This document shows, in pieces, positions 15,604-43,974 of a stretch of DNA of 44,664 nt. This stretch comes from Chloromonas sp. AAM2 (lineage: Eukaryota > Chlorophyta > Chlorophyceae > Chlamydomonadales > Chlamydomonadaceae): assembly GCA_004335635.1 (NCBI GenBank), contig QAXH01006136.1, positions 1,987 through 46,650 on the forward strand, in the 5' to 3' direction. Position 1 is the stretch's first letter. Each line of letters begins with the position of its first letter. The notes under the pieces are model-generated. The model had not been told where the DNA came from. It saw nothing but the letters and a program-made list of their open reading frames with translations, and ran no database searches. Both the position numbers and the translations under genes were made by a program.

Positions 15604-18600
15604 ATGGAAGCTATGACCTGCGCTATATGGGCCGGCTTGCTTCTGATTGCTAGCTTGGCAGCTCCTACTCAATGTGACAATACTTTCCAAGTCGGCATCG
15701 TGGCCTCTACAACAGGGAACCTCACTGACTTCTGGAGCGAGTCTGTGAATGGTGCGTGCATTGAATCTCGAAGACGTTTCTCCTCTTTTTGAAGGAATAT
15801 TCAAACGCTGCCGAGAGCAGCTGGACTTGTCCTGCCAGTACTTGTCCGGGTGGTCCGGTATGACCATGGTCATAAGAATTGAAGTGATCTGCTCATGCAG
15901 CAATGCGGTTGCATACGAAGCACACCAATCAACTTCCGAGTTTAGCATGTGCTGGCTGAGTTCAGGTGGCATGCTGATTTTTGTTCTGCATGCTGTGTGC
16001 ATGTGTTGCAGGCACCAAGATGTGGATGCAGCAGCTGAGTGACGTCCTTGGTTCAGGCGGACTGAACATCGTGGATGGTGTTGGAAACAGCATGTCATTC
16101 AATTTCAACCTGACAACAGCTGATGATGCCAGCAGCGAAGCAAACCACCACAGCCTTGTCAATGGCATGATTGCCAGCGGCGTGGATTTCATCTTTAACG
16201 GACAGCCAGCATTTGCAGTGAACGAGTCAGTCGCAGTGGACACTCTGAAGCGCATCAACATCCATGGCTTCACAGGCAATGATGAGGTGTTCAATCGGGA
16301 CCTCAAGGGCGTGTTTGGAGTGTCACAGTCCAACAGCCGGTTTACAGGCGAATTGTTCAAAGCGTACCGGGCAGCATCTATCTTCTCGGTAAGCGTCATG
16401 CATGGCTATGTGGCGTACCCGGCACATTCATTTGGTCCAATCGAAAATGTCAGAAACGTGTCTGAGGCCTTGGCGAATATTGTTGCATAATATATAGCCC
16501 ACTGGTTCACAAGTAACTAGGCTAGTTGAGTAGCCTTCAAGATAGATGCATTGCGACATGTCGAGAGCGCTGAGCCAAAACAGGTTGGCAAGCTGGTTGA
16601 ACAAAAGTTAAGCAAAAATTTTGACTGTTGTATGCTCGTGTATGCCTATGCTAGAAATACAATGCTTCAAGCCCAACCCAGGCTTGGTGAGGCCAACATG
16701 GTCAGGGTGAGAAGCAGGGTCTGGGCTGGCTGATCACAATGACAGGAACTGGATACCAGATGGCAAATGTGGTGCCAGAACTGTGCATGTAGGTGATGTT
16801 TGTGTACCGAGAGGACGTTCCAGAGCTGCGATCAGCATGTGAGGCCGCCATCACACAGGCTCGGACAGAGCTGCTCAAGGTGGGAACGTGCTGCCAGTGC
16901 AAACGAAAACCGCTGTCAGAGGAAACGGAAAGGCAGTCCAGGGAAAGCTGTCCAAGGCACTGGGGCCTGTTCATACATGAAATGGGACAAGCTGGTGTCC
17001 CACTCAGTCCCATTACCGATGTGGGGAGCGTGTGTGTTGACATGGACGGTTTGCTCAAGATGTCTGAGAGTGTACCACCGTCAAGTCTACGAGCTACCAG
17101 GGTGATGATTACAAGAACTAGGCCAGAAAGAACTAGGCCAGAGCAGCACCTGTGTGTGTGCTGTGAGGCGTCTTGTTTACACGGCTAAGAGCCTTCACCA
17201 ACATGAAGAAAGCATGTGGCACGTACCTCACGCTTATCTGCCATCGTCTCGTTGCCTGGCGGTTGCAGGTGGCCGGGAAGATCACATACACAGCCTCTGA
17301 TGTGGCTACCATAACCAGCGTGGCCCAGAAACTCAATGCCAGTACAGGAGAGGAGGTTCTCTTTGCCTGTTCTCTGGCTGATGAGGCAACCCAGCTGGCG
17401 CAGCTGATCGACCAGTACAAGAAACCGCTCAAGAGTATCGTCTTCACCAACGGCCCACTCTTGCCAGTGAGTGCATCTCTAAGCAACTGAATGCAGGCTG
17501 GTAGTTAGCTGTACCAGGAATAGCAAGTGCTAGGCAGCAAGACTGCAAGTACAGTAGCTCATGCACTCCGCTCTGTCTGCAGTTTCGAATTTTCGCTGGG
17601 CAACCCTGCCTCTCTCGAATGCTTGCCGTTGTGCATGCCACATATGCAGAGCTTTTCGGCCAACCTTGGCAACATCTCCCAGTACATCCTGAGCCCAACA
17701 CCATGGTCAGTGATCGGGGAATTGGAGAGCATTCTGATGCGTTCAGACTGTATGACAACGATGTGACTGAGCAACCCTGAGCTCTTTCTAGACTCCAGGT
17801 CTGTCACTTTGGCCTGCGATTCGGTATGCCATGTGATTGTCGCGCTCAGTTTGTATGGTTGCACACTTGCAATGTGGCAGGGGTACACGATGCTTAAAGC
17901 AAGCATGATGCATTTCTTGCTTGGATCTTGCAGGTTCAGAACATTGAAATACGAGGACTCTTTCTACGGCAGCGCATCAGATTTTTCTGTTAAGTTTTCA
18001 ACTCTCTACGGCCACCCTCCCACCTATGTTGCTGCTGGCACAGCTGCCGCTGGGCTGGTGCTCCAGCAGGCGCTCCAAGCAGCCTTCAGCGCATGTGACA
18101 CTTCAGCCACAGGAGGCGATGTCAAGCTGCTGCTGTACAGCACTAACTTGCTAAACTGCAGCGATAACAACAACAATGGCAGACTGCGCCTGATCAGCGC
18201 AATGTCACTGCTGTCCACCTCCACATTCTTTGGAGATGTCAACTTTGACAAGTTCAGGCGCAACTATGCGAACAGCATGCGGGTAACGCAGGTGAGAAGT
18301 GAGGCCATTGTCAATGGACAAATCAATACGTTGTGCAAGGGCATGGAGTTTGTCAAAAACTGTAAAGTTCATGCCTTGCTGAATGCACGATTTCCGTCCT
18401 ATTGATCAAGTGCAAGAGCATGTACTCAATCCGCGGGAACTTAGTAGTTGATTATGTACGTTGTACGACATGCCCTCATCTGAGAGCACTGTAGTTGCTG
18501 TTCCATGTCAGCAAAGGCTTTCCAAGGACTGGGCATGATATGTGCAGGCTACGGGTTTTGTTTGCCTCCTGGCTGCATGACAGGAAACCCGAACTGTCGA

Positions 18601-18803
18601 CCTTGCTGATCCTGTAGGTGTTTGAGACGGTATCCGATCTGCGCAAAGTTACACTTCCATTCGTGGTGCTGCCACTGGGCGACGCTAAAGAGGGCAGCAA
18701 AATACCGCAGCCCAACCGATACGCGCCTGTGTGCCAGCCAGGAACGTACGCGGGCCCAGATCAGTTTCTTCCATGCATCCCCTGTCCAGCGGGATCCTTC
18801 CAG
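15604..18803 (+). other. Receptor A: signal peptide and periplasmic-binding-protein-like ligand domain (exons 1-7)
   Basis: The N-terminus has a hydrophobic core (AIWAGLLLIASLAA) ending near PTQC, then DNTFQVGIVASTTG, the first strand of a Peripla_BP_6 fold. Typical landmarks follow: NFNLTTADDASS (the 'Dd.sdp' helix region), SGVDFIFNG, IHGFTGND, and the C-terminal lobe DFSVKFSTLYGHPPTYVAAG with STFFGDVNFDKF. The domain spans residues about 25-425. This fold binds amino acids or other small molecules in LivJ-type proteins and class C GPCRs. The insert CSDNNNNGRL is an Asn-rich loop. A second in-frame ATG at 15613 gives an equally good signal peptide. Confidence 0.8.
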
Positions 18804-21800
18804 GTATGCTATTGTTCAATGCATGCCAAAGTGACGGTAGCAAGCAACACGTGCTGATTAGATCCAGCTGGCAATGCGAGATTGATAATGGTGACGGCGA
18901 TACCGGAGGCGATTGCGAAGCCTGCGATACAGCCACCTCCGCGTGCTTCGTTGCGTGCAGGAGTTTGCGGCTGCCACTAACTGTGAGCTGTGCGCGCTTA
19001 ACTACTACCAGCCCTCTGCTGGTCAGGCCACATGCCTCACCTGCCCTGACAACAGTCAAACGTTTATTCGTGGTGCCGTCAATTCGACAGACTGCTTCTG
19101 CAAGACCAACTTCTGGTCAAACACACGTGGGTGTTCATGGAAACAGATTGCAGTGGCCTGCAACAGACGCCCTCGAGCCACAATGGGCAACACCAGTACA
19201 CATCATGGGTGCAGTATGTTTGTGTGCCTCTCGCCCGCTCAGTGATATTCACAGCGGGTTTGCTAGGCTCTGCTGTGTGGTGAATCATTCATGGCCTGGC
19301 TAAGATGTGTCCAAAGCCATCATGGTAACGGTGGAACACCGACGGCTTTCGTTGGAGCAGCTCTTTGACCAAGTCCTCCAGTCTACGATGCACCAGATTA
19401 CTTAGTCTTGCTCGGTTTCGATTCTCCAGCACGGTTGCGTGCTGAGGATAGATAACTGTCTGTTTGTGTGCTGGCGTTACTGCAGGAGCACCGGGTAGCG
19501 CATGTGACACATGCCCCATCAATGCTGATTGTGCGGGCGGAGTGGATTTGCCACAGCCACAGTTCGGCTGGTAAGGCACCTGGAAGAAGACCAACACAAA
19601 GCTAGCTGCCACCACAGCTGAGTCAAAGCGCAGTAGAAAAGAACACTGTCTGCGACGATTACCAATGACCTGTTGCATCCTGCTGTCTAATGTAGGTATG
19701 CCGAAGAGCCAGACCCGTCCCTTATGTTCAACTGTGAGTGTCCCCAGTTGCGGTAGCCTGCAGTGCATGCAGACACAGCGCAACAGAGCACATCTTGCAA
19801 TACCTTCTTCAATTCCTTCTGAAGCCTTGAGATGATGGAATGCGATGCAGCAAATCAGGTTGCCAGTTCAAGACAGTTCCAACCTGCCCAGTGCGTTTTA
19901 CACAACCAAGCTAAAAAGAATGAGTTCTGATGTCGTGCGCCTATTCTACATGCAGGCAACCCAAACTACGTGTGTGAAGGCAGCTTTGAATGTGGCACTG
20001 GCTATGCTGGCCGTATGTGTGCATACTGTGACAAAGGCTATTTCATGGCGTTCACAAGGTGAGCATTGGGAACCTGTTGAGTGTTGATGACATCAGGAAT
20101 CCAGAACTTTACTGTCGGTTGCTTTGAAACGGCTATCAGCAGGGTTGGTCACGTGGGAGGCACCCGATAGCCGCCCAGCGCAATCGCACTAACTTAGTTT
20201 GCAGCGCTGTCTCTGAAGATGTGCGTCTGGCTGTTGTCACGTGCAGGTGTTGGCCATGCTCCTCACCTACGTTGAATGTGGTGGCAATGCTGCTTATGTA
20301 CGTGCTGTTCTTTTTCATCAACGTATCTATTTCACGGCAATTCGAATCGTTCCACGTGCTCATGGTGGGTGATGATGCGTCAGGTCTCTCTGCCTAACGC
20401 ACACTCGATGAGCCGCAGAGAGTAGAAAACACAGGCTGGGCCTTCGAAAGTGCTTGAGTTCTCTGCTGCATTTCTGCTCTTTGAATGTGGGATTGCCTGA
20501 TCTACAAGCCTTGGCTAGCTATGACATCTTCAGAACATGTCCTCATTGCCTGCCAAAGGACTGTAAAAAATACGTATGCTGATCTGTGCTACCCGGCTGC
20601 AGAACTTTTGCCAGTACCTTTCTGTTGTCAACGCCTTCAATGTCAACTGGTAAGCCAAAGTCAACACGTGTCAGTGTTTGGAACATGCGGGCCTGTCTGC
20701 TTACAGCACCGCAGGGCAGGCTTTCATTGTGCTGTACCAAGACGCTTCCCCAGGACTGCAGTAGGTGCGGTTGTAGAGCATTCTCCAACAGATCAAGTCA
20801 ATGTGCTGGCCGGCTCCGTGTGGCCATCTCTGGATGTCTGTGGCCCGTTAATTGCATTCCACATAGATTACTAGCATCGCCATTGACATATGCTACTCCA
20901 CGCTTGCTTTGCGTGTGCCCGTATCATCCACACGTGCACTCTTTCATCACACACACGTGCAGGCCCAACACACTGAACGTCATCATGAACTACATGGGTG
21001 TCCTCAGCTTCGAAATGGACATCATCCAGCCCCAGTGTGCGGTGTCTGATTGGGCATTCGAGGAGAATCTGATAGTGCAGGTTGCGGCGCCTGCTGGCAT
21101 TGCCGCACTTGTGGCGGTGTGGACAGGCATCACATGGTTGTGCTACAGGTGCGAGGGAAACGTCAGCAGATGCCACTACCACCAGCAAGTGCTTGGTATT
21201 TCTATTCTCTGTCCTGAGTGGCGTGGTTCAAGCTCACCGTGCTCCGTCCAATCACCACGCGGGTTACCTTTGAAAGTGATATTCATTGGCTCCGCCTTGA
21301 CGCCATTGTCTTCTGCCTGCTGCACTTGACAATCTTGGTGCTACCATCTCAACCTAGCATTAAGCAATGCTTTCCACTTCCGTTTTGATCCATTGGTTGG
21401 TCGTCCTTGGCACCAGCTAACAGACATGCAGCGGTCTACAATAAGTGTCAATACAGTACTCTCAGTTGAGTTTCTTAATACTGGATTTTGTGAAAGTACT
21501 TTTGGCTTCTCAAACTAGAAGTTTCACGTCAAGATCATGAATGCCAAAAGCTCAAACGTGCAAAAATCAAGGCCAAAACCGTTCGTAACCGTGTTTACGA
21601 ACGGTTGTTACAAAACTTAACTGAGATTACGGTATGCAATCATCAGTAGATGTGCCACATCAGGGATGCCATGGTTGCCTTGTGCCTGTCAGCAGGCTTA
21701 AGATGCAGTTTGTCTGCTGTGTGTCTCTTGCTTTGTGACGCAAACCTGCTTCAAGCAGGACTGGCAGCAGCCAGCATGCAGGCAGCTGCTGTGTCTGCAA

Positions 21801-21865
21801 TGAGTACCTGATAACCAATGATTTGCAATACTCAGTGCACGCTGCACATCAGGACTGCATAAAAA

Positions 21866-21917
<52 letters not shown>

Positions 21918-24900
21918 GGCTGCCTTGTGTCTGCAGGTTGAAAATGAGAATCCTGGGTCGCAGCAGTGGAGCCATGGACACTGGTGGTCTATCGCTCCAG
22001 TCATCCAGTTCCATGCACATGGGCTCCATCAGACCCATGACAGGCTCTATCGCCTTGGAGGCCACAGCCACCTCCTCCTGGTGGCTCCTGCTGCAGGTCA
22101 GTGTACCCTCATACACTCTGTGGGGTGTCTGATTGAGTCCCAAGTGCCCCTGCCCCACACTCCGGGGTCCGTCTCATCCTCCTTGGCAGACAGGGCAATC
22201 ACATGGGTCACATGAAGGGCCAGCAGCATCAACACCATGAATCCACACCGTGTCACAAGCCCGCTGCAGGCAATGCGCTGGTTTAGGCCCGTAGCAAAGC
22301 ACAGGTCGCAATGACATGAAGTCATGAGCTGTTGTCGTACTCAACCGTACATTTGTATCCATATGTTGAGGAACATGATGTGCGGTGTGTGTTGCTTCAC
22401 GCGCCTTATGCATTGAGAGGTGATTGATAAACCCGCTTTTCAAAGATGGATGCCCATGCAATCGCCATGTGTTTACTCTGCTGCCTGTGCAGAACATGAT
22501 GCACATCCCAGGCACTCGCACTGAGATGCAAGAACTGTTCCTAGAGCGCATGGGCATTCCGCTCATGTTCCTGAACATCGGCTACCTGGCGCTTCTCAAG
22601 TACCTTCTGGCTGCCTTCTACTGCTTTGACTTCGTCGGCAGCAAGTACATTTACTACAGCCCCAACGACCTGTGCTACACGCCCAAGCACTACCGCATGA
22701 TGATGATCGCTGCAGCGGGACTGATTGTGTATGTGGGCGGCCTATGGTTCATGGTCATTCATGTGCTAAGGCACCTTAGGCGCACACGGGGCTTCGGTGA
22801 GTGCGTTGCCCTCTGCAGTTCATTGCCACATGTTATCCGGCTGCTTCATGCAATGTGGAAGTTGTGCGAGTGACAGACTGGCGCAAACCAAGGTGTGTGG
22901 CTGTTTTCGGTTAGTGAGCCTGGAGTGAATCCTTGACACATCCCATGCTTACATTGCCGATGAGCCTTGGGTTCACTTCATGTAGACCTGATCTTGACGA
23001 ACCTGTTTTTACAAACATGCACTGTGCACTCTGCAGGTAACAAGAAGCCATTGCTGTTGTTCGGCTGGCTGTACGAGCGGTACAAGGCCGAGTACCACTG
23101 GTACGAGATCATTCAAATGGTGCAGAAAACCGTCTTCGTGACTGTCATGGTTTTTCTGCTACCGGACCCAGCATTGCAGGTGCGTTGAGGAGTTGCATGC
23201 TTGCAGCGCATACAGCCACCAACGGCACGCTTACGCTAGACCCTTTGCATCAGGCAGGCATACCAACGACACAAGCAGGTTTATTGAAACAAAATTGCGA
23301 CACGTTTTTCCAACTATCAACACCGCTGGCACAGCAGCAGTACCCTGCCTTGGCCCCTTCTGGCCTTGATCTGCATGTGATCAACAGCGCCAGGGAGTTG
23401 CTGTTGGCATGCTACCCGCACCTCTACCTTGCATCAAGGTCTCCGCTTTTTGAAGTCTCTGCAGCACCAAATCAATGTCTATGCCTCCTGGTTGGTGGCG
23501 CAGGTTCTGATCTGCCTTGTTCTAGCCATCGGATGCTCTCTCATTGACATTCGCACAGCTGCTATGGTCGGTCAGATGGCGCACTACCTGCAAACAGCAG
23601 CGGATGCCGCGCTGTCAGCAATCCTGGTCTTGGGCCTCATCTTCTTCAACAACGTCGTGATAAGCAGCACGGTCAAGGTGGCATACGTAAGTAGCTGGAA
23701 AAAAGCGACAACTGCTGGCTGGCTACAGGGACTTAACAGATGGTTATCTCCCCTTCGTTGATGATTTTCAGCGCCATACGACCATGCATTGTCATGGATT
23801 GTCAGTCAAACTAGCTGTGACAAGTTCTCTCTCCTCCACGTGAAAACAGCAACCGAGTGTGCTTGTGCTGGTGTCAACTGACCTTGTGCGCAGTACGTTG
23901 GAATGATCATGGTGATCGGACTCCTGGTGGTGCTGGTGTGCTACTTGCTCATGGAAGTGGTCTTGTACATCATGGTGAGTCCATGTGAAAGACAATGCTG
24001 TCATGCTTGAGGGCAGCCACAATCCGAGTTGAAACCCACAAGGCAACATTTGATGCACAACAAAATTTGACACGACAGCAGGGAACGAAGGCTGTGTCAT
24101 CTCTACTCAAGCACTTGGTGGCTTGCGTGTTTTGGCCACCTCGTGCTAAGTGCATAAGGCCGGAAAGCAGAACGCGAAGGCAATAAGGATCAAGTCATCC
24201 GCATACAACATGCTGTTTGCAGGTATCCATTCTGATGACGCGTCACAATCGAATTGCCAAGAGATGGGGTCATAACGTGAAGCAGTTCCATCACATGTAC
24301 AGGTAGGCACCAATGCTCAGTGAAGATGGTCGTTGGAATCCAGAATCATTCAGATGGTGACGCAGAAAATATGCATGCATGGTGGGCCAGGCAGCGGAGC
24401 CCATGGTGGAATCCAACTGCGGTGAAATGCTACACATTGTCACAGGCACACGGCGCCTTCAAACCCAGCCACCACTGCTCGTTTCCTACGCAAGTTAAGC
24501 ATTCCTGAGGCAGCGTCTAGTGATGCTTGCTGTTGATGACGTGCCCGTCTGCCACCTTGTTGGTCCATTGTCTACTCAACATATCTGTCCACTAAGTGCG
24601 ACTGTTTCTGTCCTCATTCGCAGTCTCTTTGATCCTCTTTTCATGGTCAGGTAAGCCCAGCTGCACAGCGTCAGGGAATTAATGCACACAGGGCCATAGA
24701 CACAGCCATGCAAGATGAGCGCAAGTTCAGAACCCTCACCGGAGCATGCCTTTCCATGTGCCTGCTGATCCCATCATTTGCCGAGTTCCACCAGCTTGGT
24801 CACCGCTGGATCAGAGACTTGAACTAGCGAACGTACAATAACCCAAAAATGCGGACACGCATTGCAGGTGGCTCTTTAAAGCGCAGCCAGAGGACTGGGC

Positions 24901-27722
24901 ACAGTGGCACAGGCTGTGCATCATGCTGCAGCACAACGTGCATCCAACCAACGAAACGTCCTATCTGTCGGTTAAAAAGGTGGGTGTGTGAAGCTCAGCT
25001 CTTGACATTGCCTGTGCATGTTTGAATTGCATGTCTGAATTGCATGTCCGGAGGGGATTTGACAAGTGCTGACGTGCACAGCCAAGCAGCTGCAGTTCGC
25101 CCTGCCATTTTGCGAACGCATGCTCGTAGTACGGAGAACGACCTTACAACCATCAGGCTGCAGCGGGGTGGTATTCTCGAGCTGACCGGATATGTTTGTC
25201 CAGACATAACGTTACACAAGCATCACGTGACGAAAAAATGTTTCAGGGTCAGAGTTGCAAGTCTGTGCTCAATTGCAGTCCTGCTCCTGCGAACGCAGGT
25301 TGGACGCTTCTGGCGCTACCTGCTGCTCAACTTCCCGGAGACTGTCGACTTTTTGACAACATGTGAGCCGGAGCACCGCGAGAACTTTGGAGCGTTTGCC
25401 GAGGTCATGTGAGTTGCAGGTTTGGTATGTAAACTGCGGTTGAATGTAATCGTTGAATTATGCTTGTACATTGTGTTCATTGAATGAAGGCAGAGTTTTG
25501 ATCGGCAGAAGTGCGCTCACCTCCACTGGTAAGTGCCCTATGATTAAACACACAACGTTGGACCGCCTTGGTGGATGGCGCCGCCTTGATCCCACATTCG
25601 AGTGCGCCGGCGGCATGCAGACACGATTTGTTCCGCGTTTGTGCCGCGTTCGCTCGACATGGTTGTCTGGTCCGTGTTTGCTGCCTCATTCCCACCTCTG
25701 GCCCCTTGCATCTTTGTTGCATTTCATGGCGCAGGTTCGAAGACTATTTTGACACGCAAGAGGAGCTGCCCGTCCAGCTAAACATGATCGTGAACGATAA
25801 GCACAAGGCCGCTCTGTCACAGTGGCTAGCCAGCGCGGAGGAGTCGGAACTGCAATTCCTCCGCAACATCATGACTACCGCATTCGGTCGGGCTCGAGGC
25901 GACCAGGCAAAGGAGGAAATCACCAGGGCCATGAGCCGGAGCAAATCAGGCCTTCAGTCGATGAAAGGACTTCAATTGGGGGACATGAGTTTGAACGCAA
26001 GGAAAAGCAGCAGCAAACTGCAGCTGCAGGAGACCACAAGTCAGCCGATGGGTTCACAATCGACCATCGGGGCGATGATGGATAACGAAGCCTTCAACCA
26101 TCACACGGACGACGGCTCCTGGCCTCAGCTCAAGGCCATGAGCGTGAATGACGATTTGCCTGCTGGCATCGCGACAATCTCGGCAAACGGTGCCCCCACT
26201 GGTGGCAAGTGAGTATGTTTCATGCCAACGCCGGAATGTCTAGTTGTGTTGATGCTTGCCTTGTGTGGCTGCAACATGCTCGTTCTTTCTGAACCCTTGC
26301 CTGTTGGGCTGTACGCTCCCCTGGTCTCTGGTATCTCGTAGTTCGGCATCCCAAAGTATCGGCCGACGGGCGTTTTCTGACGCGCTCTTTCCAAGGCCAC
26401 AGCACGGAACACGGAACACATATCGTCCTTGGGTATGACCTGGAACTCAATCCGCAGGTGCTTTGCATGCTCCGCAGGAACTTCGCGGCCGCGTTCCGCA
26501 GGGCATCAGTTGTGGAGCCTTCCGGCGGGAGTCCACCAATGTCGCCTGCGCCTGCTGGCCCCACACGGCCGAGCATCAGGAATGTCAACAACGAGGCTGA
26601 CGCTGTCTCGCCGTTTTCCCAGGAGGTAGGAGTTCGCCTTGGCCTCGAGCTTCATGTTGCTATGGGGCTCCATGTTGCCAGCGCGATCAATGCATTGATA
26701 CCGACTGGGCACACTGCGTTGTTTAAGTTACATGCGCGCCAAGCAACACACCATGAGATACTCAGTTCAGATGGATGGCCATCGGTCTGTTAAGTGCGCA
26801 ACACACAGGTTTTGCTTGGCGAATGCTCATGCTAACGACCCAGCGTCTGACTGCGGATCACGCTTAGGTTGTGCCCATCATTACGAATGCCCTGATCACC
26901 CTTTGTGGTTTGATTTGTGGTGCAGAACGAACCCCAGCAGCCGTCCATGCGGCAAAAACGCACGGCTGCACGTTTTGCTGATGATGCAGCAGCTCAGGAC
27001 AGGTGCGCTTGCTGCGACCTGCCTATGAAGGCGTGGGTTGGGTTATGAATTCTGCACTCAACTTTCATCAAGGCTTGATTGCCTGGCAGCTGTGTTATTC
27101 GTCATCTGTGCAACTGCCAGAGAGTTGAGCAGCTGGTCCCTATCCTCATGTGTGTGTGAAGGCCTCAAGATACGCAACCCAGACCAACGCCCCTTGACCA
27201 TGCAGGCCTGGCAGCACCGTGACGCTGATCTCATCAAGTGACGCCAGACTCGACGACAATCTGCCCGTAGTCGGAGAGGAGCAGAGATCGCATGCACCGG
27301 TCGCGCCTGTGGTTGGTGTTTCTGCACCGGTCTCACAAGGTTCACTGAATGCATCAACAGGTTCATCAAGTGCATCGCCAAGGCCGCCGAGCGATCCGCG
27401 ACCAGCACCCCTTCAAACCAGCCCGCGCTTGATTGGTGCTCAGGAACTGGCGACGGCAACCCAGGAACTGCTTTCCGACACCGACCTACAGCCAAAGGCA
27501 CTCGTGCCCGAGCTAACGCCTCGCCAAGCGGCTGTGCACGTAGCGACAACAATGTCTACTTCCGGAAGCATGCGTATGCCTCCAACCATAGCAAAATTGC
27601 TGGATTCAAGTCCAGAGGATGATCTGGATGCGGCCATGGCGATGGTGGAAAATTATGTTGCGAACACAGCCGCGGAGCAGGCTGCAGGTAGAAAAGAAGT
27701 AAATTCGGACGCAGATCGGTAA
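15604..27722 (+). CDS. Receptor A: Venus-flytrap ectodomain, Cys-rich stalk, multi-pass membrane protein
   Basis: 27 exons: 15604-15751, 16012-16388, 16793-16879, 17269-17466, 17650-17705, 17934-18291, 18618-18803, 18961-19126, 19486-19570, 19696-19733, 19956-20058, 20247-20364, 20603-20649, 20963-21148, 21937-22096, 22493-22796, 23037-23179, 23504-23686, 23894-23974, 24223-24302, 24624-24650, 24868-24979, 25299-25408, 25735-26208, 26478-26625, 26926-27002, 27206-27722. They total 4569 nt (1522 residues) with no internal stop. Exon edges were set by donor/acceptor sequence, phase, and alignment with copy B, which matches exon for exon. Order: signal peptide, Peripla_BP_6-like domain, GCC2/GCC3 cysteine region, about 8-9 membrane segments, cytosolic tail. 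It is likely a surface receptor or ligand-gated channel (inferred from architecture). The ligand is unknown. The stop at 27720-27722 overlaps a donor-like GGTAAGTG, so a further 3' exon cannot be excluded. Confidence 0.85.
18618..20364 (+). other. Receptor A: cysteine-rich GCC2/GCC3 stalk (exons 7-12)
   Basis: Residues about 430-610 carry regular Cys spacings: CQPGTYAGPDQFLPCIPCPAGSF, then CELCALNYYQPSAGQATCLTC, CDTCPINADCAGG, and CNPNYVCEGSFECGTGYAG with CAYCDKGY and CWPC. The pattern C..C...YY....GQ..C..CP is that of the ephrin-receptor-like / GCC2_GCC3 family. The module sits between ligand domain and membrane, as the cysteine-rich domain does in class C GPCRs. Exon 10 is only 38 nt. Confidence 0.75.
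20247..24302 (+). other. Receptor A: membrane module of about 8-9 segments (exons 12-20)
   Basis: Hydrophobic segments in order: VVAMLLMYVLFFFINVSI; a weak one around TLNVIMNYMGVLSF; LIVQVAAPAGIAALVAVW; IPLMFLNIGYLALLKYLLAA; MMIAAAGLIVYVGGLWFMVI; MVQKTVFVTVMVFLLP; VLICLVLAIGCSLI; LSAILVLGLIFFNNVV; and VIGLLVVLVCYLLMEVVL. Landmark motifs NFCQYLSVVNAFNVNWP, YYSPNDLCYTPKHY and GWLYERYKAEYHWYE recall membrane regions of many protist GCC2/GCC3 proteins, from memory and not by search. I do not recognise it as the class C GPCR 7TM fold or a canonical TRP pore. Confidence 0.65.
21868..21914. repeat. (AAT)n microsatellite next to a splice acceptor
   Basis: About 15-16 TAA/AAT units run to roughly 22 nt before the acceptor of exon 15 of receptor A, at the end of its longest intron (788 nt). 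Confidence 0.92.
24223..27722 (+). other. Receptor A: cytosolic tail (exons 20-27)
   Basis: A conserved helical block follows the last membrane segment: RHNRIAKRWGHN, EDWAQWHRLC, RFWRYLLLNFPETVDF, HRENFGAFAEVM and the E/K-rich LASAEESELQFLRN with KEEITRAMSRSKSGLQ. From about residue 1200 on the tail is Ser/Pro/Thr/Asp-rich and disordered-looking, with many possible phosphorylation sites. It ends with DDLDAAMAMVENYV, a short amphipathic motif also kept in copy B. Confidence 0.6.
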
Positions 27723-28380: not shown

Positions 28381-28400
28381 CTTCTTTCTTTCTTTCTTTC
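28381..28400. repeat. (TTTC)n microsatellite
   Basis: Five TTTC-like units directly 5' of the duplicated GST-like relic. Confidence 0.85.
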
Positions 28401-30366: not shown

Positions 30367-31286
30367 CTCCCTGCGCGCAGCCCAGACAGTGTTGCAGGGC
30401 TCTAAGTGCAAAATTTGCGTTGTGAGTGTGTGTGAAAGACATCTCTTGCGGACACACAGTTGCAGGTTCTTGTTTCGCATCACGTTCCTTGCTCGTCAGG
30501 TGATGGCTGCCATCTAACAGCTGCTTGCCGCATGTGGCCACTAAACATACATGTGCTTAGTGTTGTATCAGTGCCACGCCACCTTCCGGTGCAACAAGGC
30601 CACCGGTCCCTGCAGAGGTAGTGTAGCAAACGGCTACTTACCCGTCCTGAGAAACAGCTCGCCAGAAAGGTCGTCGGGTGATGACAAGAATTGCCAAGGT
30701 CGGCGAGTAGAACTGGTTTCAAGCTGACCACAGCGCGCAGACCTGGCGTGAGCCATGTACGTCATTCAGGCATGTCATTTTCGGCAGTTTGCGGTTTCTA
30801 TGGTCCCATATTGCATGGAGGGGCAGTTACAACGACCTTACCTTATTCCATAGATATAAGCATACGCAACGTGTATCTGTGTGTGTGCGGTAGCAGCCGC
30901 CCAACGTCAGACCAACTAGAGCAGTTGGCTTCAAAGCACGAGGCTTCGAAAATCAGCGCCTCTCTTTAGCATCGCTATCTGATATTGTAATTGCAAGCCT
31001 GCCTGGCCGGGGGAAGCCCGAGCTGCCGTACTGAAAGTGGGGCGAGACAGGTTTGTTCACTGTTCTTGCTTTGAGGCGCTTCTGCTGCCCCGCACAAGCC
31101 AGTTAGCTGACCGTAATGTCCAGGCTATGTCGTACAGCAGTCCCACGGTAGTCCTGCTCATTTCCGCCATATGTCCAGCAGCTGCCGACTGAGACTTGAG
31201 CGTCTGTGATGCGCAGGCAGACAGGCAGGCATCGTCGCCTAAGCATGGACGCACATGCTCGCCGGCCTGTTTACAGGCAGCATGCC

Positions 31287-34200: not shown

Positions 34201-34605
34201 GAAGTAACAAAACTGTTTTCAGATGCACATGCTTTGTTTGATTGCACATGCTTTGTTTGACCCTAGTAAATGTTTTGAGATACTTAATTCATTTATTTCA
34301 TTGATCTAATTGAGGTATTATCAGCAACAGAACGCTACTCGAGCCCTCTCAGTATGCCTGCTGCCTAAACTGTGGTCGTTCGCAGCAATGCTATGCCGCC
34401 ATGCCCTGTTTGCCCGCAGATGTTCGAAACAATATCTGATCTGCGCAAAGTTACCCTTCCATTCGTGGTGCTGCCGCTAAGCGATGCGACAGCAGGAAGC
34501 AAGATACCTCAGCCCAACCGATACGCGCCTGTGTGCCAGCCAGGGACGTACGCCGGTCCAGATCAGTTTCTTCCATGCATCCTCTGTCCAGCAGGCTCGT
34601 TTCAG
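31287..34605 (+). other. Receptor B: signal peptide and ligand-binding domain (exons 1-7)
   Basis: It opens DNTFQVGIVASATGDLTDFW. Exons 2, the second half of 4, and 6 are nearly identical in DNA to copy A. Exon 3 (YRDDIPELRSACETAI) and the first half of exon 4 (VVDKVTYNASDVETMT) have diverged in protein. Ligand contacts in Peripla_BP_6 folds come from loops of both lobes, so the paralogues may differ in specificity only through the diverged patches (inference). Confidence 0.75.
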
Positions 34606-37600
34606 GTAGGCCGGTTGCACTGTAGGCCATCACTGAATGCGGCAGTTCTTCAGAAGTGTGTGACGGTGTGTTTGGTGCGTCTGACCTCCGTGTCCGGAGC
34701 GGAGCTCCGGACTCTATCCTGCGGGAACAAGCGCACCACTTTCTGTCCAGGCTTGACAGCTATGAGTATGTACGATATGCAGGCTGCAAAGCAAAATCAA
34801 ACTTGAAGTCATGTGTGCGAGTTGTAGCTGGCGGTGACTGTAGTTATGCTGCCCACTGGCAGCATAACCTGGCAGGCCTGCAGATGGGTTGACTCAAACA
34901 TGATAACACATAAGACAAGCAGGAACAGAGGCAAGAGAGTGGGTAATAAGGTCAAGGGCAGCGATCCAAGAGCTAGACAGTATCATACTGTATTGGAGTT
35001 TAACACATTTGTGAGGCCAAGGTTCACTGCTTTGCTTCATGGCACGAGACGCCGTTGGAGCCGAGTCATGCAGCACAGCATGCTGACGATGTTGCTTTGC
35101 CCTTGAATGTCCAACGAACAGGAGTTTGCCGGGAAAACAAGCTGCGAACTGTGCCCAAAAAACTACTACCAGAATTCTACTGGCCAGGCCACGTGTGCAG
35201 CCTGTCCTGATAACAGCGAAACGTCCTTGAGGGGCGCCACAAGCAGAAAGGACTGTACCTGCCTAGCCAACTTCTGGACGAATGCACGTGAGTGAGAGTG
35301 ACCACTTGCCCCTCATGGCATGGTTCAACGAAGCAGCCTCTAACCCTGAAGTTTGCGTGCAAGAGTTGAAATGAAAGGAACTTCCGGATGGTGTGGAGCA
35401 TCTGGCACTGATGATCACATCTGCTGTCACAGTTCCAGGCATTTCACAGCACGCTTTGATATTAAGTGCAAGGGGTTTGGACCATGAGCCAAAGTATGAG
35501 TTGTGTGGCATCAGTCCTTATCTGAAGCACACCACACTCATGCAGGTGTCACCCGACCCACAAAATGCCAGCAGCCACTTGCCCAAGCAGGTCACAACAG
35601 AGCTTCGGTTGTTGTGTTGTCATCCCGCAGGCCTGCCAGGCAACCCTTGTCATGAGTGCCCTATCAACTCTGAGTGTGCGGGTGGAGTGAGCCTGCCGCA
35701 ACCTGACTTTGGCTGGTAAGGCTGCCATCCTTACTTGCCTTGTACGGATTACGCATGTGGATGTTCTCAGTTGATAGCTTGAAGAGCAGGAAATGAAAGG
35801 GTGCTTGCGGAGTCAAACCCGTCAAAACCTCCATGCAATCTGCTTGTAGAGGTCCGATTGAACCATGAGGGAATGAGGATGAAAGACCGCCTCACCTCAG
35901 TCAGTGAACAGAACTCAGGTCAACCAACTGTCAACCAGACCTTGTTGACAAACTCTGTTGACACATATCCTTCTTGTGCTGCATGCTGCAGGTATGCCGA
36001 ACCGCATGATCCGTCAACCATGTACAACTGTAAGAGTCCATGGCCACATTGCTGTTCAAAGCAGAATTATCAACCCGAAAAATTTGTTACACGCCCTTTA
36101 GAGGAACTGTTGACGCAGTTGCTGGGATCGCCAGTGCCAGAGCAGGAACAACTTGTGCTTGATATTCCAAAAACGTGGAGTCAGGCGGCAAGTCTGCCAT
36201 TTCTTCTTTGCTTGCTTGCAGGCAACCCAAACTACGTTTGTGAAGGCAGCTTCAAATGTGGCACTGGCTACGCCGGCCGTATGTGCATGTACTGTGACAA
36301 AGGCTATTTCATGGCGTTCACAAGGTGAGGCCCTTATCAGCGCTTGTGGGCGTCTGCATGGAACAGTTGTGTTTGCATGGCCCAGTGCATGTGGCGTTTG
36401 CCCATGTTATATGGTCCTGGAACTGTCATACCAATTCTAACCTGCCATCTGAATCTCACGCTACGACCACGACACTTTTCTCCCTCGCATTTGCTGTTGC
36501 TTGCGCAAGCTGTCTGTATGCAAGGCACCACCACCACAAACCAGTGTGATCGCAAAACAGTTAGAATGCCCTGCGTAACAGGGATCATTCTGGCTGTGAA
36601 GATGTAATACGATGTGTTGCTAAAACCATGACATACCTGTTGATTGTGATTGGCACGTGCAGGTGCTGGTCGTGTCCCTCGCCCACTCTGAACGTGATCG
36701 CCATGTTACTCATGTACGTGCTGTTCTTCCTGATCAACGTCTCCATATCTCGCGAATTCGAGTCTTTTCACGTGCTCATGGTGGGTCGCTGATGTGCAGT
36801 GTACGCATCTGTTGCAGCAAGCGAGAAGAGTCAGTGACAATTGAACTATTGGCACTGCATCGGAACAAGCCTAGCGTTCAAGCTATGGACAGTCTGTGAT
36901 TGTTGCAAAGCTGGTGCCTCAATAGGTTTGCATGGTTTCAATGATCAGTGATTCTTTGGGAATGATGAGCACGACCAGGCCTGCCTGCTCAACAGTAAGA
37001 ATTCTCCAGCACGAGGTGGTCCAACAAGCCTTGTACTTGCGGCAATGCCACAACTTTCATGCCTGATGTGTGTCTTCAGAACTTCTGCCAGTACCTATCC
37101 GTGATCAACGCGTTCAACGTGAACTGGTGAGCCAAAGTCAACATAACGGTGGCGACCACGTGTTTACAAACTGTCCCAGACCTGGCAATCATCCTTTGTT
37201 TTTGCGGTTGCCAGCGCAATCACTTTTCGCTAGTACACGTTGATGTTGCCAGCCTTCGGACTTCCGTCATCATTATTCCAGGGTTGCTCCCGCCTTACCA
37301 TGTTTTCACTACCTTCCTAGGCCATTGCTTGAGGATTGTTCCCAATCGTGCTTTGTTTTTTGCGCAGGCCAAACATCCTGAACCTTATGATGAATTACAT
37401 GTCCATTCTGAGCTTTGAGATGGACATCGTCCAGCCTCAGTGCGCTTTTCAAACTTGGTCATTTCAAGAGAATCTCATGGTGCAAGTCATCGCACCTGCT
37501 GGCATCGCCCTCACAGTGGGCATTTGGACATCATTCACATGGGTGTGCTACAAGTAAGTGTGTCACACAACCACACAACCAATTCAGTGAAGTTAGTTAC

Positions 37601-40600
37601 ATTACACTTTTGGCCTCATCGGTGATGAGTATTCCTGATTTGCCATTTCACATTGGATGTCTTGTCACCCTTTAAGAAAACGTACAGCGCCATGTGGCAT
37701 GGTCCTGTTTGCGTTTCTGGCATGCAGTTTCACAGTCACTTGCGAGTCAACAAAGCAACAGCTTAATCAAGGCCGCTGTTGCAGCTGCTGCAAACTATGC
37801 CACTGCCTAGTGCCTGACTGCTGTGTGCATGCCGCTAGATGCATGGCTTTAGATGCATGTTATTTCACCATGTTGATGCAAAGCATTGTAACATGATATC
37901 TGTCTGGTGCTAAGTGACTGCATGGTACCTGTCTACAGGTTCAAGATGCGAATCATGGGCCGCAGCAGCGGTAATCTGGAAGCCAGTGGGCTGTCCATCA
38001 CCTCCACCAACTCCATGCACTTTGGCTCGCTCAACCCGATCACGGGATCCATTGAAATGGAGGCCACCGCTACCTCGTCGTGGTGGCTCCTGCTGCAGGT
38101 CAGGCCTAGGGTCGGCACGACAGATCATAGGCCTAGGGTCGGCATAGGCCTAGGGCCCGCATGATAGATCATAGGCCTAGGGCCGGCACGACAGATCATA
38201 AGCCTAGGGTCGGCATAGGCCTAGGGCCGGCATGATAGATCATAGGCCTAGGGCCGGCACGACAGATCATAAGCCTAGGGTCGGCATAGGCCTAGGGCCG
38301 GCACGATAGGTCATAGGCCAAGGTCGGCACGATAAATCAACTCCATATCCATGACTTGCTTGAGGCAACGAGCCAGGCAAGGCCCGTAGCAAAGCACAGG
38401 CTACCTGGTCATCGTCACTGCATGGCATCTGCAGACAGCACTGAACAGAGTCTGGTAGCAATTGTATCTCGGGTGATCTGTGTCAGGTTGGACAGTGTGC
38501 ATGGCACCTTCATTTGCACGTGCTTGCATGCTGGCAATGAACCTTCACAATGCGCACAGTCGACGGCTTCAAATGGTTCTGTTATCAGGGACACCAGCCG
38601 GCCCCACCAGATGTATCTCCACAGAACCATGTTTGTTAAGCCTGCTCCAGGCGCCCATGAATTACACGAGCATTTGAAAGCTGATTGCTGACTTACCATG
38701 CCTAGCCCTGTAGCTCGTCTTTGCTTAAAGAGTGAAGGGCACACAGGCTCCAAATGCTTGCAAGTCCCTGTGCTGCCTGTGCAGAACATGATGCACATCC
38801 CAGGCACCCACAGAGAGATGCGCGAGCTCATGCTTTCCCGTGCTGCCATTCCGCTCATGTTCCTTAACATCGGCTACCTGGCTCTTCTCAAGTACCTTCT
38901 TGCTGCCTTCTACTGCTTTGACTTCGCTGGCACCGAGTACATTTACTACAGCCCCAACGACTTGTGCTACACACCCAAGCACTACCGCATGATGATGATC
39001 GCTGCAGCGGGACTGATTGTGTACGTGGGCGGCCTATGGTTCATGGTCATTCATGTGCTAAGGCACCTGCGACGTACGAGAGACTTTGGTGAGTGTTCGA
39101 AGCCTTGCAGGTCATGGAAATTGATAAGCATTGCCGAAACTGGGTCGTGGCATGGAGGAGCTGGCGAGTGACTGGCATCAACTGCGGAAATACATCACGA
39201 GCGCTTTCTCGAGCTATAGGCTGATACCATGATTTCAGATGATGTAATGCAATCAAGACATGGATTGTGTACACACAGTTGTGGATCAATGAGCCTAACG
39301 TTTTGTTGTCAAGAGGTGTAGGCAAACCTTACTGTTGTATATGGGTTGTGCACACATGGTTGCTTGTTGATGAGCCAGAAGTGGTTTTTGCCTGCCACAG
39401 GTGGCAAGAAGCCATTGCTGTTATTCGGCTGGCTGTACGAGCGGTACAAGGCCGAGTATCACTGGTACGAAATCACCCAGATGGTGCAGAAGACTGCTTA
39501 CGTGACAATCATGGTATTTCTGCTGCCGGACCCGGCATTGCAGGTGCGTCTGGGAGTCACACCACTTAGTTTAGAGCCGCTTCTATTTCTGCTGCTCTGG
39601 CCTTGGGCAGCTAGAGGTGCAATGCAAATCATGCAGCCGCACAGCTACCCAGGCAAGCAGTTTAGGCCCGGCCCTTGTATCGCGTCTTCAAGTACAATTG
39701 ATGGCTCGTTGCCTGTTCGTGTCCAAGTAATGTTTTATCTGTTGCCTGTGCGTGCCACAGGTGTTGCTTTGCCTGGTGCTGGCAGTTGGCAGTGCGTTGA
39801 TTGATGTGCGCACTGCAGCCATGGTCAATGACGCGGCCCATACGCTGCAGACAGGGGCGGACGCAACCATGGCAGCCCTGCTGGTCCTGGGACTGGTCTT
39901 CTTCAACAACGTGGTGCTGACCCGGACCATGTCCTTGGCATACGTAAGTCTTCAACTCACCAGGTGCTAGTGCAGGCCAACACGACACAGCGCTAGTAGG
40001 CCAAACAAGGCTGCACTTGCTTGGGTGCATGGGTAGCAAAAGGCTGCAGTACTGCGTGGGTGATCGAGGACAGGGCATTTGCGTGCAATGATTGCCTGCA
40101 GTAGTCGAATGCAATCAGCACAGCCAAATGCACGGTTTGACTCTGGAGCTTCAAGTAAATTGAGGCTTGACTGTTGACGGCAGCCTTGTCTGCGGAAGCA
40201 CCATGCTTGATTGCAACCTCAGTCTAAGAATGTAAAGCAGCTGCACGCACACAAGGCACGTCAGCATGTGGAGTCCAGCTGGGTGTTGCGTGCTGTTGTA
40301 CCTGCAGTATGCGAGCATTGTCCTGACGGTGGGGATGCTCGGGTTGCTGATTGCGTATGTACTCGTGGAGATCGTCCTGTACATTTTGGTGAGTGAGCAG
40401 TCATTGTCTCAAGGATAGGCATGCGTGCGTTGAAGTCGGGAGGTTTCAATCCTCATCAATGCAAGTATAGACTGCTCCCTGCTTACGTGGATGTGATGTA
40501 TCACTTTTTACATGGATGTGATGTATCACTTTTTACATGGATGTGATGTATCACTTTTTTATGTTCGCTTCATGATTTTAATTCCTTCCCTTCATTGTCT

Positions 40601-43600
40601 GCTTGGTATAGCATGCAGCTCTCTTGGCTCTGCGTGTAGGTGTCCATCCTTATGGCTCGACACAACCGGATTGCCAAAAAATGGGGTCACAACATGCGGC
40701 AGTTCCATCACATGTACAGGTAACTGTCAGTGGCGGTTATGTTTTCTCATCCATCTATCAATCCATCATCATTCTGCATCATTGTCTTCAACTGAAGACA
40801 CGTTAAGCAGACCAAATACCACCCAAGTGCACAGCCAGCCTTCACTCAGCCTGGCATACTGCCTGTTGCCGGCACAGGGAAGTCTGTCAACCCTGGCTCT
40901 GGTAAACAGCATCCTTGGCTTTGGCATGCATACTAGCTGATACGTTGCCTGGTTGCCGCAGTCACCTGAACATGTAGCTACAATACCAACAGGTCAATCT
41001 CAATTGTGTTCCATTGCACTGTTCTTTTTGCTCGCAGCGTTTTCAACCCCATCTTCATGGTCAAGTGAGTGATATACCCTTTGGCTCCCAGGCACGGTTA
41101 TACTTGAGGACAAGGCGATAACTCCGAGCACTTCCCAACAGTTTCAGACACTGCTGCCAGAACGGCCTCAAGAATACCTGGGTGCCAACGAAACGGGGTA
41201 ATGCCAAGGCATGCATCATCTTTGTTTGCAGGTGGCTGTTCAGGGCAACGGCGGAGGATTGGATGCATTGGCACAGGCTATGTGTCCTGTTGCAGCACAA
41301 CGTGCATCCAACCAACGAGACGTCCTACCTGTCGGTCAAAAAGGTGGGTGTGTGCAGCTTAGGACAACTGCTTGTGCCATTCCGCCATTCCCTTCATTGC
41401 TCACATTGTGTTGGAGGCAATGTTCTGTGACCTCTGGCCAGCATCAGTAACTGAAATGATATGATGCCCAATCAGTTTGAATCACTACCGTGCACGGTGT
41501 ACAGCATTAACACAAATTAGCATGCAGCAAGTGTGCTTAAATGCTGTCCTGCTCTTACGAACACAGGTTGGACGCTTCTGGCGCTACCTGCTGCTCAACT
41601 TCCCTGAAACCATCGACTTTCTGACAACATGCGACCCGGAGCACCGCGAGAACTTTGGCGCTTTCATTGAAGTCATGTGAGTACAGTCGAGTGCAAGTAG
41701 CTAGATGTAAGAACTCTGTTCACAACAACCTTCGTCAGGAGTTTGTGCGAGTGCGAAGTAAGTGGCCTGATGAGTTATCAGCAGCATGTACGAACTTCAC
41801 AGCGGTAAGATAGGAGACACTAGTGATGTGTTAACAGACGTGCTACCAGCAAGAAACACGATTTGGTTTTACAGCAAAGATGACTGGACGAGTGCGTGGT
41901 GGTTGTCTGATTGAGTGCGCCCACCTCCATCTCCCGTCTGCTCATCTGTATCGCATCTTGTGGCGCAGGTACGAGGATTACTTTGACACGCAAGACGAAT
42001 TGCCCGTCCAGCTGAACATGATCGTTAACGATAAGCACAAGGCCGCTCTGTCACAGTGGCTAGCCAGCGCGGAGGAGTCGGAACTGCAGTTCCTCCGAAC
42101 CATCATGACCAACGCATTTGGCCGTGCCCGAGGCGAGCAGGCAAAGGAGGAAATCACCAGGGCCATGAGCCGGAGCAAATCAGGCCTCCAGTCGATGAGG
42201 TCAGGGCATCAATTGGGAGACGCCAGTGTGAGGAAAGGCGGGCTGTCAGGCAGAGGGCAAAGCAGCAACGGCGCGGGCCAACTGACCAGGCGCAATACTG
42301 CTACAAGCGAAGCGGGCTGGGCGCCTTTGAAGCCTGAAAACGCCCTGACTGCCGACATTGGATCGCCGCTAAGCCAAAGCCTACTTGCGGACGGCATCAC
42401 CACAATCGGTGGCAAGTAAGTATGGTTGCTGGCTTTATTACGTCGAAGAAGTGCGCCATTGTGTAAATCGCAGGCCCTCAATCTCCGATGTACCAAATTT
42501 GCAGCACGTATTCAAATCAGCAGAATGGGTTGTCATCAATCTGCTGATGCCGCCCAGCCGCAGAAAGGAACACGATGTGCATATGGTTCGTAACCCAATC
42601 ATCGGCGCATTGGCCAACGCCTGCCTTTGACCTTGTATCGCAGGAATTTTGCCGCCGAGATCCGCGCGCAGCAAAAACACAAGCTTGGTGCAGAGCAATC
42701 TGCATCATCGCTTACATCGCCGATGAAGAGTGCATTTCCCAGTGATCTCATTGCAGTCCCACGCATCGGGGACGGGCCAGCTTCCCCTAACATGCAAGAG
42801 GTACGGGGAAGCTCTTGAGTCAAAAAAAATGTCAGCCGGGTGTAGTCCCAACACACCAGTTGGCTCAGCTCATGTAGATTGAAGAGCCAGTTGTAGAGCG
42901 TGGAGCCTAAGATGCGAGAAGTAGGTGCCTGTCGATACCGTGGATCGATTGGGAACGCTTGCAGCGTAAGTCGTGTGACGTTTTTACAGGCATGTCGTCA
43001 AACAAACGCTCGGCAATTGGAACGTGTTTGCGATTCAATGCCACAGGTCGACAAGGTAAAGGCCAAACGGAAAGTGTCGGTCTTTGTGGACCCTAAGACT
43101 TCGCTTGCTGAAAGGTATGTGACCATCCTACAGCTGCAGGTCACAAATGTTACATTTATTGCATGTTGAGATACAATAACAGAGACCAAATCGATAAGGA
43201 ACAGTGGCATTGTTTGCCATGTGTGTGATTGTGTCTTGGTACAATGATAGCAAATTGGCAAGGAACAGGGTCAATGTTTGCCATGTGTTCTTTTGTATAC
43301 TTTTGAGTAGCATGAGTAGCTAGTGCTCGCTACGGGCTGTGCCCGCTTCTATCCTGCAACACATCAACCAGTCACAAGCCCGTATCATTTGCAGTGAGGC
43401 GACCGGCCTCATTCGCTCAGCCACTTCAAACGACGACCAGCCCGTTCAAATCGTGGCAGAAGAAACCGACGAGGGCGACCTCCAACCTGGCGAAATTCAA
43501 CCCGCCCAGCAAAGGTCTTCCCCTTCCCCGTCTGCGTTCAAGCTCGCCTCTGTCGCCTACCAAGAGGAGGCCTTGCAACCATCGCCACCGTCAGTGTCAC

Positions 43601-43974
43601 GCCCGGTGCAGCTGCGTCCTGCTGCCATGCCGTTGCGAGACCAACCCTTAGATGACGATGCGCGTCTGATCGACGCCACGGATCGGCTCTTGGCTGACAC
43701 AGACCTAAAAGCTGTGCAACCAGAGTCCAGGCTGGCAACAGCTGCTGTTCTGCCTCCAGCATCTCCGCCAAATCCTGGTGCGATCGCAAGTCAAGCAACT
43801 CATGTATCACCACGCTCAACCCAAGCAGAAGGGCAGCCAAGCATCAGTCAGACTGCGGAAGCCTTTGACCTGGACCTCATGATGGCGGCAGTGGAAGGGA
43901 GCGTCGGCTCTCATGCTGCACCGGCACGGCTTGACGATGATGGCGACATGGGTGCGCCACTGGACAAGCCGTAG
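31287..43974 (+). CDS. Receptor B: tandem paralogue of receptor A
   Basis: 27 exons: 31287-31425, 31699-32075, 32330-32416, 32635-32832, 33024-33079, 33391-33748, 34420-34605, 35122-35287, 35631-35715, 35992-36029, 36222-36324, 36663-36780, 37080-37126, 37368-37553, 37939-38098, 38785-39088, 39401-39543, 39761-39943, 40308-40388, 40640-40719, 41038-41064, 41232-41343, 41567-41676, 41969-42415, 42644-42800, 43047-43114, 43395-43974. They total 4596 nt (1531 residues). Exons 2-23 have exactly the same lengths and phases as in copy A; only exon 1 and exons 24-27 differ in length. The start MARAWQTILLLIACLVLPA was chosen over in-frame ATGs at 31206 and 31245 because it gives a clean signal peptide, sits in GCCATGG and aligns with copy A. 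The fold, stalk and membrane module are as in A. No disabling change was seen. Confidence 0.86.
33851..33890. repeat. 13-bp tandem repeat in receptor B intron 6
   Basis: GCAAAAATTTCTC occurs three times, the last unit ending GCAAATT. Confidence 0.85.
34420..36780 (+). other. Receptor B: cysteine-rich stalk (exons 7-12)
   Basis: Cys positions match copy A (CELCPKNYYQNSTGQATCAAC; CHECPINSECAGG; CEGSFKCGTGYAG; CMYCDKGY; CWSCPSPT). Sequence between cysteines differs more than in the ligand domain. Intron 7 (34606-35121) and intron 6 (33749-34419) are longer than in A and unrelated in sequence. Confidence 0.72.
38101..38340. repeat. Higher-order minisatellite (27-bp and ~72-bp periods) in receptor B intron 15
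   Basis: The basic phrase AGGCCTAGGGYCGGCAYGAYAGATCAT is arranged in a larger block of about 72 bp repeated roughly three times, with AAGCCTAGGGTCGGCAT as the internal variant. Each unit contains the palindromes AGGCCT and CCTAGG. It starts right after the exon 15 donor (38099). The corresponding intron in copy A has no such array. Confidence 0.92.
40483..40560. repeat. 25-bp tandem repeat, 3 copies, in receptor B intron 19
   Basis: The unit TACATGGATGTGATGTATCACTTTT repeats three times, the first with ACGTGG. It lies about 80 bp before the exon 20 acceptor. Confidence 0.9.
40640..43974 (+). other. Receptor B: cytosolic tail (exons 20-27)
   Basis: The first ~150 residues after the membrane match copy A closely (NFPETIDFLTTC, ASAEESELQFLRT, SRSKSGLQS). 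Beyond that the tails are essentially unrelated low-complexity Ser/Pro/Gln/Asp-rich sequence, except for FAAEIRAQ versus FAAAFRRA at the start of exon 25 and FDLDLMMAAVEGSV near the end. The tail ends at TAG 43972-43974. Confidence 0.6.

Follow-up and report, generated by a model that had tools for sequence, protein, structure and literature searches.

Tandem genes in a green alga that appear to join a Venus-flytrap head to a TRP PF06011-like multi-pass membrane module

A stretch of 44,664 bases from the green alga Chloromonas sp. AAM2 (hereafter the window; it lies on contig C1970 of the genome searched, 74.4 Mb in 2,324 contigs) carries two genes in tandem on the forward strand, spaced by 3,564 bases (15604-27722 and 31287-43974), whose predicted products combine a Venus-flytrap head of the Peripla_BP_6 family, a cysteine-rich stalk, a multi-pass membrane module and a long tail. 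The best reading of these sequences is that a Venus-flytrap sensor has been placed on a widespread stalk-plus-multipass module, and we lean towards the view that both genes code for solute receptors of the cell surface, each built on a module of the TRP/CRMP type. The initial annotation of the region had suggested an undescribed class of chemosensory receptor or channel. As a putative function, this is still the best guess, but the membrane class itself is already present in databases, though functionally obscure, given that a related protein of Dunaliella tertiolecta passes the Pfam cut-off for PF06011; the feature that looks unusual is the combination of a module of known type with a Peripla_BP_6 head.

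Gene models and domain architecture

The exon models were derived by comparing the two copies with each other and by alignment with a relative, P0001 (hypothetical protein FOA52_014182 of Chlamydomonas sp. UWO 241). The resulting features, in window coordinates, are as follows.

Gene 1: 15604..27722, + strand, 27 exons, 1522 amino acids (aa), GT-AG introns, phases as in gene 2, relative P0001; exons 15604-15751, 16012-16388, 16793-16879, 17269-17466, 17650-17705, 17934-18291, 18618-18803, 18961-19126, 19486-19570, 19696-19733, 19956-20058, 20247-20364, 20603-20649, 20963-21148, 21937-22096, 22493-22796, 23037-23179, 23504-23686, 23894-23974, 24223-24302, 24624-24650, 24868-24979, 25299-25408, 25735-26208, 26478-26625, 26926-27002, 27206-27722
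Gene 1, exons 1-7: 15604..18803, + strand, signal-peptide-like start and Peripla_BP_6 (Venus-flytrap) domain (Pfam, 48.8 bits, residues 28-409)
Gene 1, exons 7-11: 18618..20058, + strand, cysteine-rich stalk, residues about 446-605, Ephrin_rec_like followed by a DUF7630-like box (Pfam scores; cysteine box pattern at residue 567)
Gene 1, exons 12-20: 20247..24302, + strand, nine membrane segments as predicted, residues 609-1009, plus the first part of the tail (hydropathy and charge; identity with P0007)
Gene 1, exons 20-27: 24223..27722, + strand, tail, conserved proximally and fast-evolving distally (P0001 alignment; inter-copy identity)
Gene 2: 31287..43974, + strand, 27 exons, 1531 aa, GT-AG introns, phases as in gene 1; exons 31287-31425, 31699-32075, 32330-32416, 32635-32832, 33024-33079, 33391-33748, 34420-34605, 35122-35287, 35631-35715, 35992-36029, 36222-36324, 36663-36780, 37080-37126, 37368-37553, 37939-38098, 38785-39088, 39401-39543, 39761-39943, 40308-40388, 40640-40719, 41038-41064, 41232-41343, 41567-41676, 41969-42415, 42644-42800, 43047-43114, 43395-43974
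Gene 2, exons 1-7: 31287..34605, + strand, signal-peptide-like start and Peripla_BP_6 domain (Pfam, 49.2 bits, residues 25-405)
Gene 2, exons 7-11: 34420..36324, + strand, cysteine-rich stalk (Pfam scores; cysteine box at residue 564)
Gene 2, exons 12-20: 36663..40719, + strand, multi-pass membrane module, plus the first part of the tail (landmarks and phases as in gene 1)
Gene 2, exons 20-27: 40640..43974, + strand, tail (spliced model; copy comparison)

The pair is real and apparently intact. All 26 introns of each gene have GT-AG boundaries, all 27 phases match between the copies, and each spliced coding sequence ends in a single terminal stop, with 51-66 stops in both alternative frames. 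Two short exons, recognised via the P0001 alignment, are present in both copies (23894-23974 and 24624-24650; 40308-40388 and 41038-41064). Start (15604), end (43974) and exon count (27 per gene) had been given in the initial annotation exactly as in the final models. The models were built from genomic sequence, which leaves room for an annotation artefact, namely a fusion of unrelated genes, or for a pair of pseudogenes; we give this explanation next to no credence because it is at odds with the matched exons, splice boundaries and single stop of the two copies, with an overall ratio of nonsynonymous to synonymous divergence (dN/dS) of 0.27, and with the alignment of P0001 across both the ectodomain and the membrane part, which indicates that the head and membrane exons belong to one gene.

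With respect to the ectodomain, Pfam was searched with the whole gene 1 protein and with the first 1192 of the 1531 aa of gene 2; the negatives at E<=10 quoted from this search are to be read in the light of the HMMER filters, which discard most matches above E 0.1. Both Peripla_BP_6 (PF13458) matches exceed the cut-off of 31.7 bits, and Ephrin_rec_like, or GCC2-GCC3 (PF07699; cut-off 23.1), reaches 44.0 bits in gene 1 and 59.2 bits in gene 2, so that the ligand-binding head and cysteine stalk proposed earlier are supported at the level of domain recognition. By hydropathy only, the hydrophobic N-terminus is of the signal-peptide type, and each gene encodes eight N-glycosylation sequons upstream of residue 610. 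For DUF7630 (PF24633; cut-off 27), the spliced proteins fall short at 21.2 and 18.6 bits, whereas single exon frames were flagged as over the cut-off (27.0 and 26.8 bits, the latter 27.3 with its neighbours); the relatives P0007 and P0004 pass. Searches of PDB sequences with the head and the module gave no meaningful relative (best rows E 0.23-0.88), and a search of NCBIfam with the head only gave nothing notable.

Relationships of the membrane module

Each protein search scored only the roughly 8000 candidates that share the most words with the query. The search of 5.8 billion proteins, with 7986 candidates scored, returned five matches (P0001 to P0005). The alignment with P0001 (37% identity over 98% of residues 1-1120 of a 25-exon gene 1 model) extends from the N-terminus across the head, stalk and module into the proximal tail, and the two proteins share stalk cysteines as well as membrane landmarks; P0001 differs in a longer loop behind the third membrane segment and in its distal tail. 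P0002 and P0004 have the stalk and the membrane module in common with the window genes. P0003 and P0005 were dropped, their matches being confined to cysteine-rich parts as judged from coverage and patterns. A search with the module added P0007 of D. tertiolecta, the compact P0008, and P0009, a 132-aa fragment that was set aside. No relative was found in viral contigs searched with P0008 (six peptide patterns) or in prokaryote contigs searched with A4 (two patterns).

The available sequence of P0007, annotated as a 'TRP C-terminal domain-containing protein', begins inside the stalk. P0007 shows 46% identity over 96% of a 643-residue gene 1 query comprising the module and proximal tail, and passes both Pfam TRP PF06011 (36.3 bits, cut-off 28.5) and DUF7630 (29.3 bits). 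Gene 1 itself scores 24.5 bits against PF06011 (E 1.5e-5) as a 643-aa piece and 23.8 bits as a 462-aa piece, both below the cut-off; in the whole protein, residues 840-1023 correspond to profile positions 229-418. The view that the motifs GWLYERYKAEYHWYE and YYSPNDLCYTPKHY belong to no known group is not supported: they are the local forms of common landmarks that read GWMYERYESKFYWFE and YFDPDTKCYTPEHF in P0007, while P0004, which has an FG-GAP ectodomain, shows them as GFLVARFAPHSWWFE and DADPGRSCYNSSWW. The same order of landmarks, namely the cysteine box, the first helix, F-x-Q..W-P, conserved loop cysteines and an aromatic L-Y..W-x-E motif, is kept in the alignment of P0008, P0007, P0001, P0004, P0002 and P0006, the last of which was recovered by a search based on P0001. 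Among eight module proteins the cysteine box pattern occurs in seven, F-x-Q..W-P in all and the L-Y-E motif in six, these patterns having been written after the sequences were seen; in 2000 shuffles of gene 1, neither the cysteine box nor the L-Y-E motif turned up. When the profile of the algal module was compared with that of P0008/P0004, hhalign gave a probability of 97% and an E of 6e-11 for a match that spans 119 of the 463 columns.

Four distant proteins carry these landmarks as well, three of them with an ectodomain of another kind: LRR and TIG in P0002, FG-GAP in P0004, and Chlam_PMP in P0006 (precomputed entry). P0007, starting in the stalk, and P0008, with little ahead of the cysteine box, are uninformative on heads. 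Our provisional label for the module is 'TRP PF06011-like / CRMP-like multi-pass', in which the likeness to CRMPs is by published description only.

Nine membrane segments are predicted from hydropathy and charge, in agreement with the 'about 8-9' noted before. The five inner stretches (171 residues) contain 24 lysines and arginines versus three in the four outer loops (63 residues), with three more in the final 30 residues of the ectodomain, and both loop cysteines fall on the outer side. Since the segments were picked by eye, this topology is supported rather than proven. Two AlphaFold models likewise have nine membrane-length helices in the module region, with strands between the fourth and fifth, both at low confidence.

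The order of a flytrap followed by a cysteine-rich stalk, together with a low-scoring match of gene 1 to NCD3G (17.3 bits, far below the cut-off of 38.9; none listed for gene 2), brings to mind a very divergent class C G-protein-coupled receptor (GPCR) acting through G proteins. We regard this as very improbable: 7tm_3 is not listed at E<=10 for either protein, nor at E<=0.01 in an exon-by-exon search of the genome, itself insensitive; hydropathy gives nine segments, not seven; the nearest membrane relative, P0007, lies above the PF06011 cut-off; and a 2025 survey states that the ANF plus NCD3G layout has been found in no non-metazoan GPCR identified so far (PMC12716839). Neither protein has a listed match at E<=10 to Lig_chan or SBP_bac_3 of the ionotropic glutamate receptors, or to Ion_trans or PKD_channel of canonical TRP/PKD channels. 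Thus, of the Pfam families named in the initial annotation, Peripla_BP_6 and GCC2/GCC3 were recovered, 7tm_3, Lig_chan and PKD were not listed, and TRP took an intermediate place, below the cut-off in gene 1 and unmatched in gene 2; its statement that the membrane part belongs neither to class C GPCRs nor to ionotropic receptors stands within these limits.

Divergence between the two copies

The two proteins share 72% identity across the 1479 codons that align, and the overall dN/dS given above compares with 0.16 in exons 12-20. In the tail, the inter-copy identity is 0.39, 0.21 and 0.33 in exons 25, 26 and 27. The silent sites are unevenly alike. At fourfold-degenerate sites, the agreement is 0.89, 0.89 and 0.83 in head exons 2, 4 and 6 (16012-18291 versus 31699-33748) and 0.31-0.36 in exons 9, 12, 15, 18, 25 and 27. 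Synonymous divergence (dS) is 0.11 in exon 2 and 0.16 in exon 6, and exceeds 1 or is saturated in 13 of the 27 exons. A clustering test on 513 sites placed the best segment at residues 27-426, where 150 of 181 sites are alike, a score reached by none of 5000 shuffles. Of the 26 introns, 24 show no inter-copy match, and the other two have matches that are 17 and 21 bases long. The simplest reading is exon-confined gene conversion; the alternative is that selection on silent sites accounts for the likeness. Head exons 3, 5 and 7 (0.55-0.60) are less alike, and exons 11, 16, 17 and 23 outside the head are fairly alike (0.71-0.83; 12 sites in exon 11), so that homogenisation spares part of the head and also reaches beyond it.

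Other loci and surroundings

The family searches of the genome read exons singly and are weak, so that their counts are lower bounds and no absence is claimed from them. The insensitivity is evident from PF13458, for which the exon-by-exon search gave no match and missed even the window heads detected after splicing, and from PF06011, which gave no match in this genome or in the controls. When 1159 residues of the 25-exon model were used as query, and the best candidates scored, all 41 matches fell on C1970, in the two window genes only; both DUF7630 matches are these same genes. Elsewhere, Ion_trans gave 38 matches, and 15 of the 17 Ephrin_rec_like matches lie on contigs C2025, C962, C309, C1209 and C414. 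A module profile run against five Ephrin_rec_like stretches from these contigs (44.5 kb in total) gave a best E of 5.6; the genes may extend past the stretches, and that on C962 leaves out two of the six matches there. The stretches on C2025 and C962 are cysteine-rich, some with a proline-rich end, and the module was not found in the pieces read.

Within the window, two partial exon copies of the adenylate kinase family, which we take to be UMP-CMP kinase-like, form a tandem local duplication on the minus strand (366-770 and 1919-2617; ADK 39.0 and 35.8 bits). The intergenic region between genes 1 and 2 contains 22-bp tandem repeats (30220-30389), and intron 15 of gene 2 an array of AGGCCTAGGG(T/C)CGGCA-like units (38102-38323).

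Predicted function and alternatives

On the receptor reading, the flytrap head would close on a small solute, and the stalk would relay this closure to a nine-pass module, oriented N-out/C-in, related to PF06011 and resembling the nine-pass core of the CRMPs, which might then alter cation flux, most likely of Ca2+, or dock cytosolic partners. A Ca2+ output is a tentative and rather doubtful suggestion, borrowed from fungal PF06011 proteins (PMC9600462). The duplicates keep a closely similar sensor, as judged from the silent sites of exons 2, 4 and 6, alongside diverged tails, a combination that would fit one ligand with two readouts.

Several observations weigh against this reading. P0001, scanned by itself, has no Peripla_BP_6 match at E<=10, so that ligand binding may not be conserved. 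Residues 28-460 of P0001 nonetheless align with the flytrap head, which therefore appears to be fast-evolving between species. The tie to PF06011 is uneven, the whole gene 1 protein scoring only 20.5 bits and the gene 2 protein giving no match at E<=10. P0006 was recovered at E 9.1e-3 only, and the hhalign match to the distant proteins omits the later helices, which are tied by alignment landmarks only. The AlphaFold models have pLDDT values of 45.0 and 47.6, and neither matched PDB at E<=0.001. The likeness to CRMPs is drawn from published descriptions. Finally, to say that only the sensor is kept between the copies is a simplification, given the unhomogenised exons 3, 5 and 7 and the fairly alike stalk exon 11.

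Alternatively, the proteins might be CRMP-like sensors of contact or adhesion, in which a surface or polymer encountered by the ectodomain triggers an internal event, such as exocytosis, and the flytrap has lost the ability to bind a small ligand. CRMPs reportedly pair Ephrin-receptor-like repeats with nine segments and are needed for regulated exocytosis (PMC9815656, PMC9670195); moreover, related modules bear LRR/TIG, FG-GAP and Chlam_PMP heads, and the flytrap is not recognisable as Peripla_BP_6 in P0001. Nevertheless, both window genes retain a nearly full-length Peripla_BP_6 match, the copies differ little in head exons 2, 4 and 6, and the parallel with CRMPs is one of description; we consider a contact sensor unlikely, if worth keeping in view. 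Peripla_BP_6 proteins work in bacterial uptake systems, which evokes a binding-protein-assisted transporter whose head captures a solute and whose membrane module imports it. Fungal PF06011 proteins were indeed proposed as flavin carriers, but recent yeast studies, according to the same paper, favour calcium signalling (PMC9600462), related modules carry heads not known to bind solutes, and the long tail would suggest signalling; import is, in our estimate, a distinctly improbable function.

Should solute binding by the head control the module, as we favour, the pair would provide a small-molecule handle on a poorly understood multi-pass family, with an output (ion flux, G protein or exocytosis) open to direct testing. 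It would further mean that the layout of flytrap plus cysteine stalk had been assembled a second time, with another membrane engine; no such receptor is named for this lineage among the literature matches listed. Conceivably, though here we can speak only speculatively, solute-gated nine-pass receptors form a class in green algae and may act as Ca2+ channels; a bacterial-type flytrap and a cysteine stalk would here have been joined to a TRP/CRMP-type module independently of the class C GPCRs of animals, and this module would serve across eukaryotes as a common signalling chassis with swappable heads.

Comparison with known systems

In the literature searched, mainly non-subscription, no paper on this architecture in algae was among the matches listed, and DUF7630 was not mentioned. 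The PF06011 TRP domain of the fungal FLC family is matched over part of its profile and below the cut-off by gene 1, and not by gene 2. In a study of this family, most of the Flc1 homologues tested have an ML-like or ML head, and the proteins influence Ca2+ homeostasis, with the choice between Ca2+ sensor and channel left undecided for Flc1 (PMC9600462).

The CRMPs of apicomplexans and ciliates, as described in two papers, resemble the window proteins in placing Ephrin-receptor-like repeats ahead of a multi-segment core, nine segments being the count in Toxoplasma and Plasmodium and that predicted here by hydropathy; they differ in their Kringle, MAR and EGF-like heads and in the five segments predicted in Tetrahymena. 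They are proposed sensors that act in the triggering of exocytosis, and one group terms those of Toxoplasma GPCR-like without counting them as bona fide GPCRs (PMC9815656, PMC9670195).

Class C GPCRs (mGluR/CaSR/T1R) have the flytrap head and the cysteine-rich stalk in common with the window proteins, which differ in their nine predicted segments, the lack of a 7tm_3 match and an NCD3G score far below the cut-off. The trypanosome receptor adenylate cyclases likewise display Venus-flytrap heads on a membrane receptor of a protist (PMC6027212); in contrast to the algal proteins, they have one membrane span and a cyclase domain.

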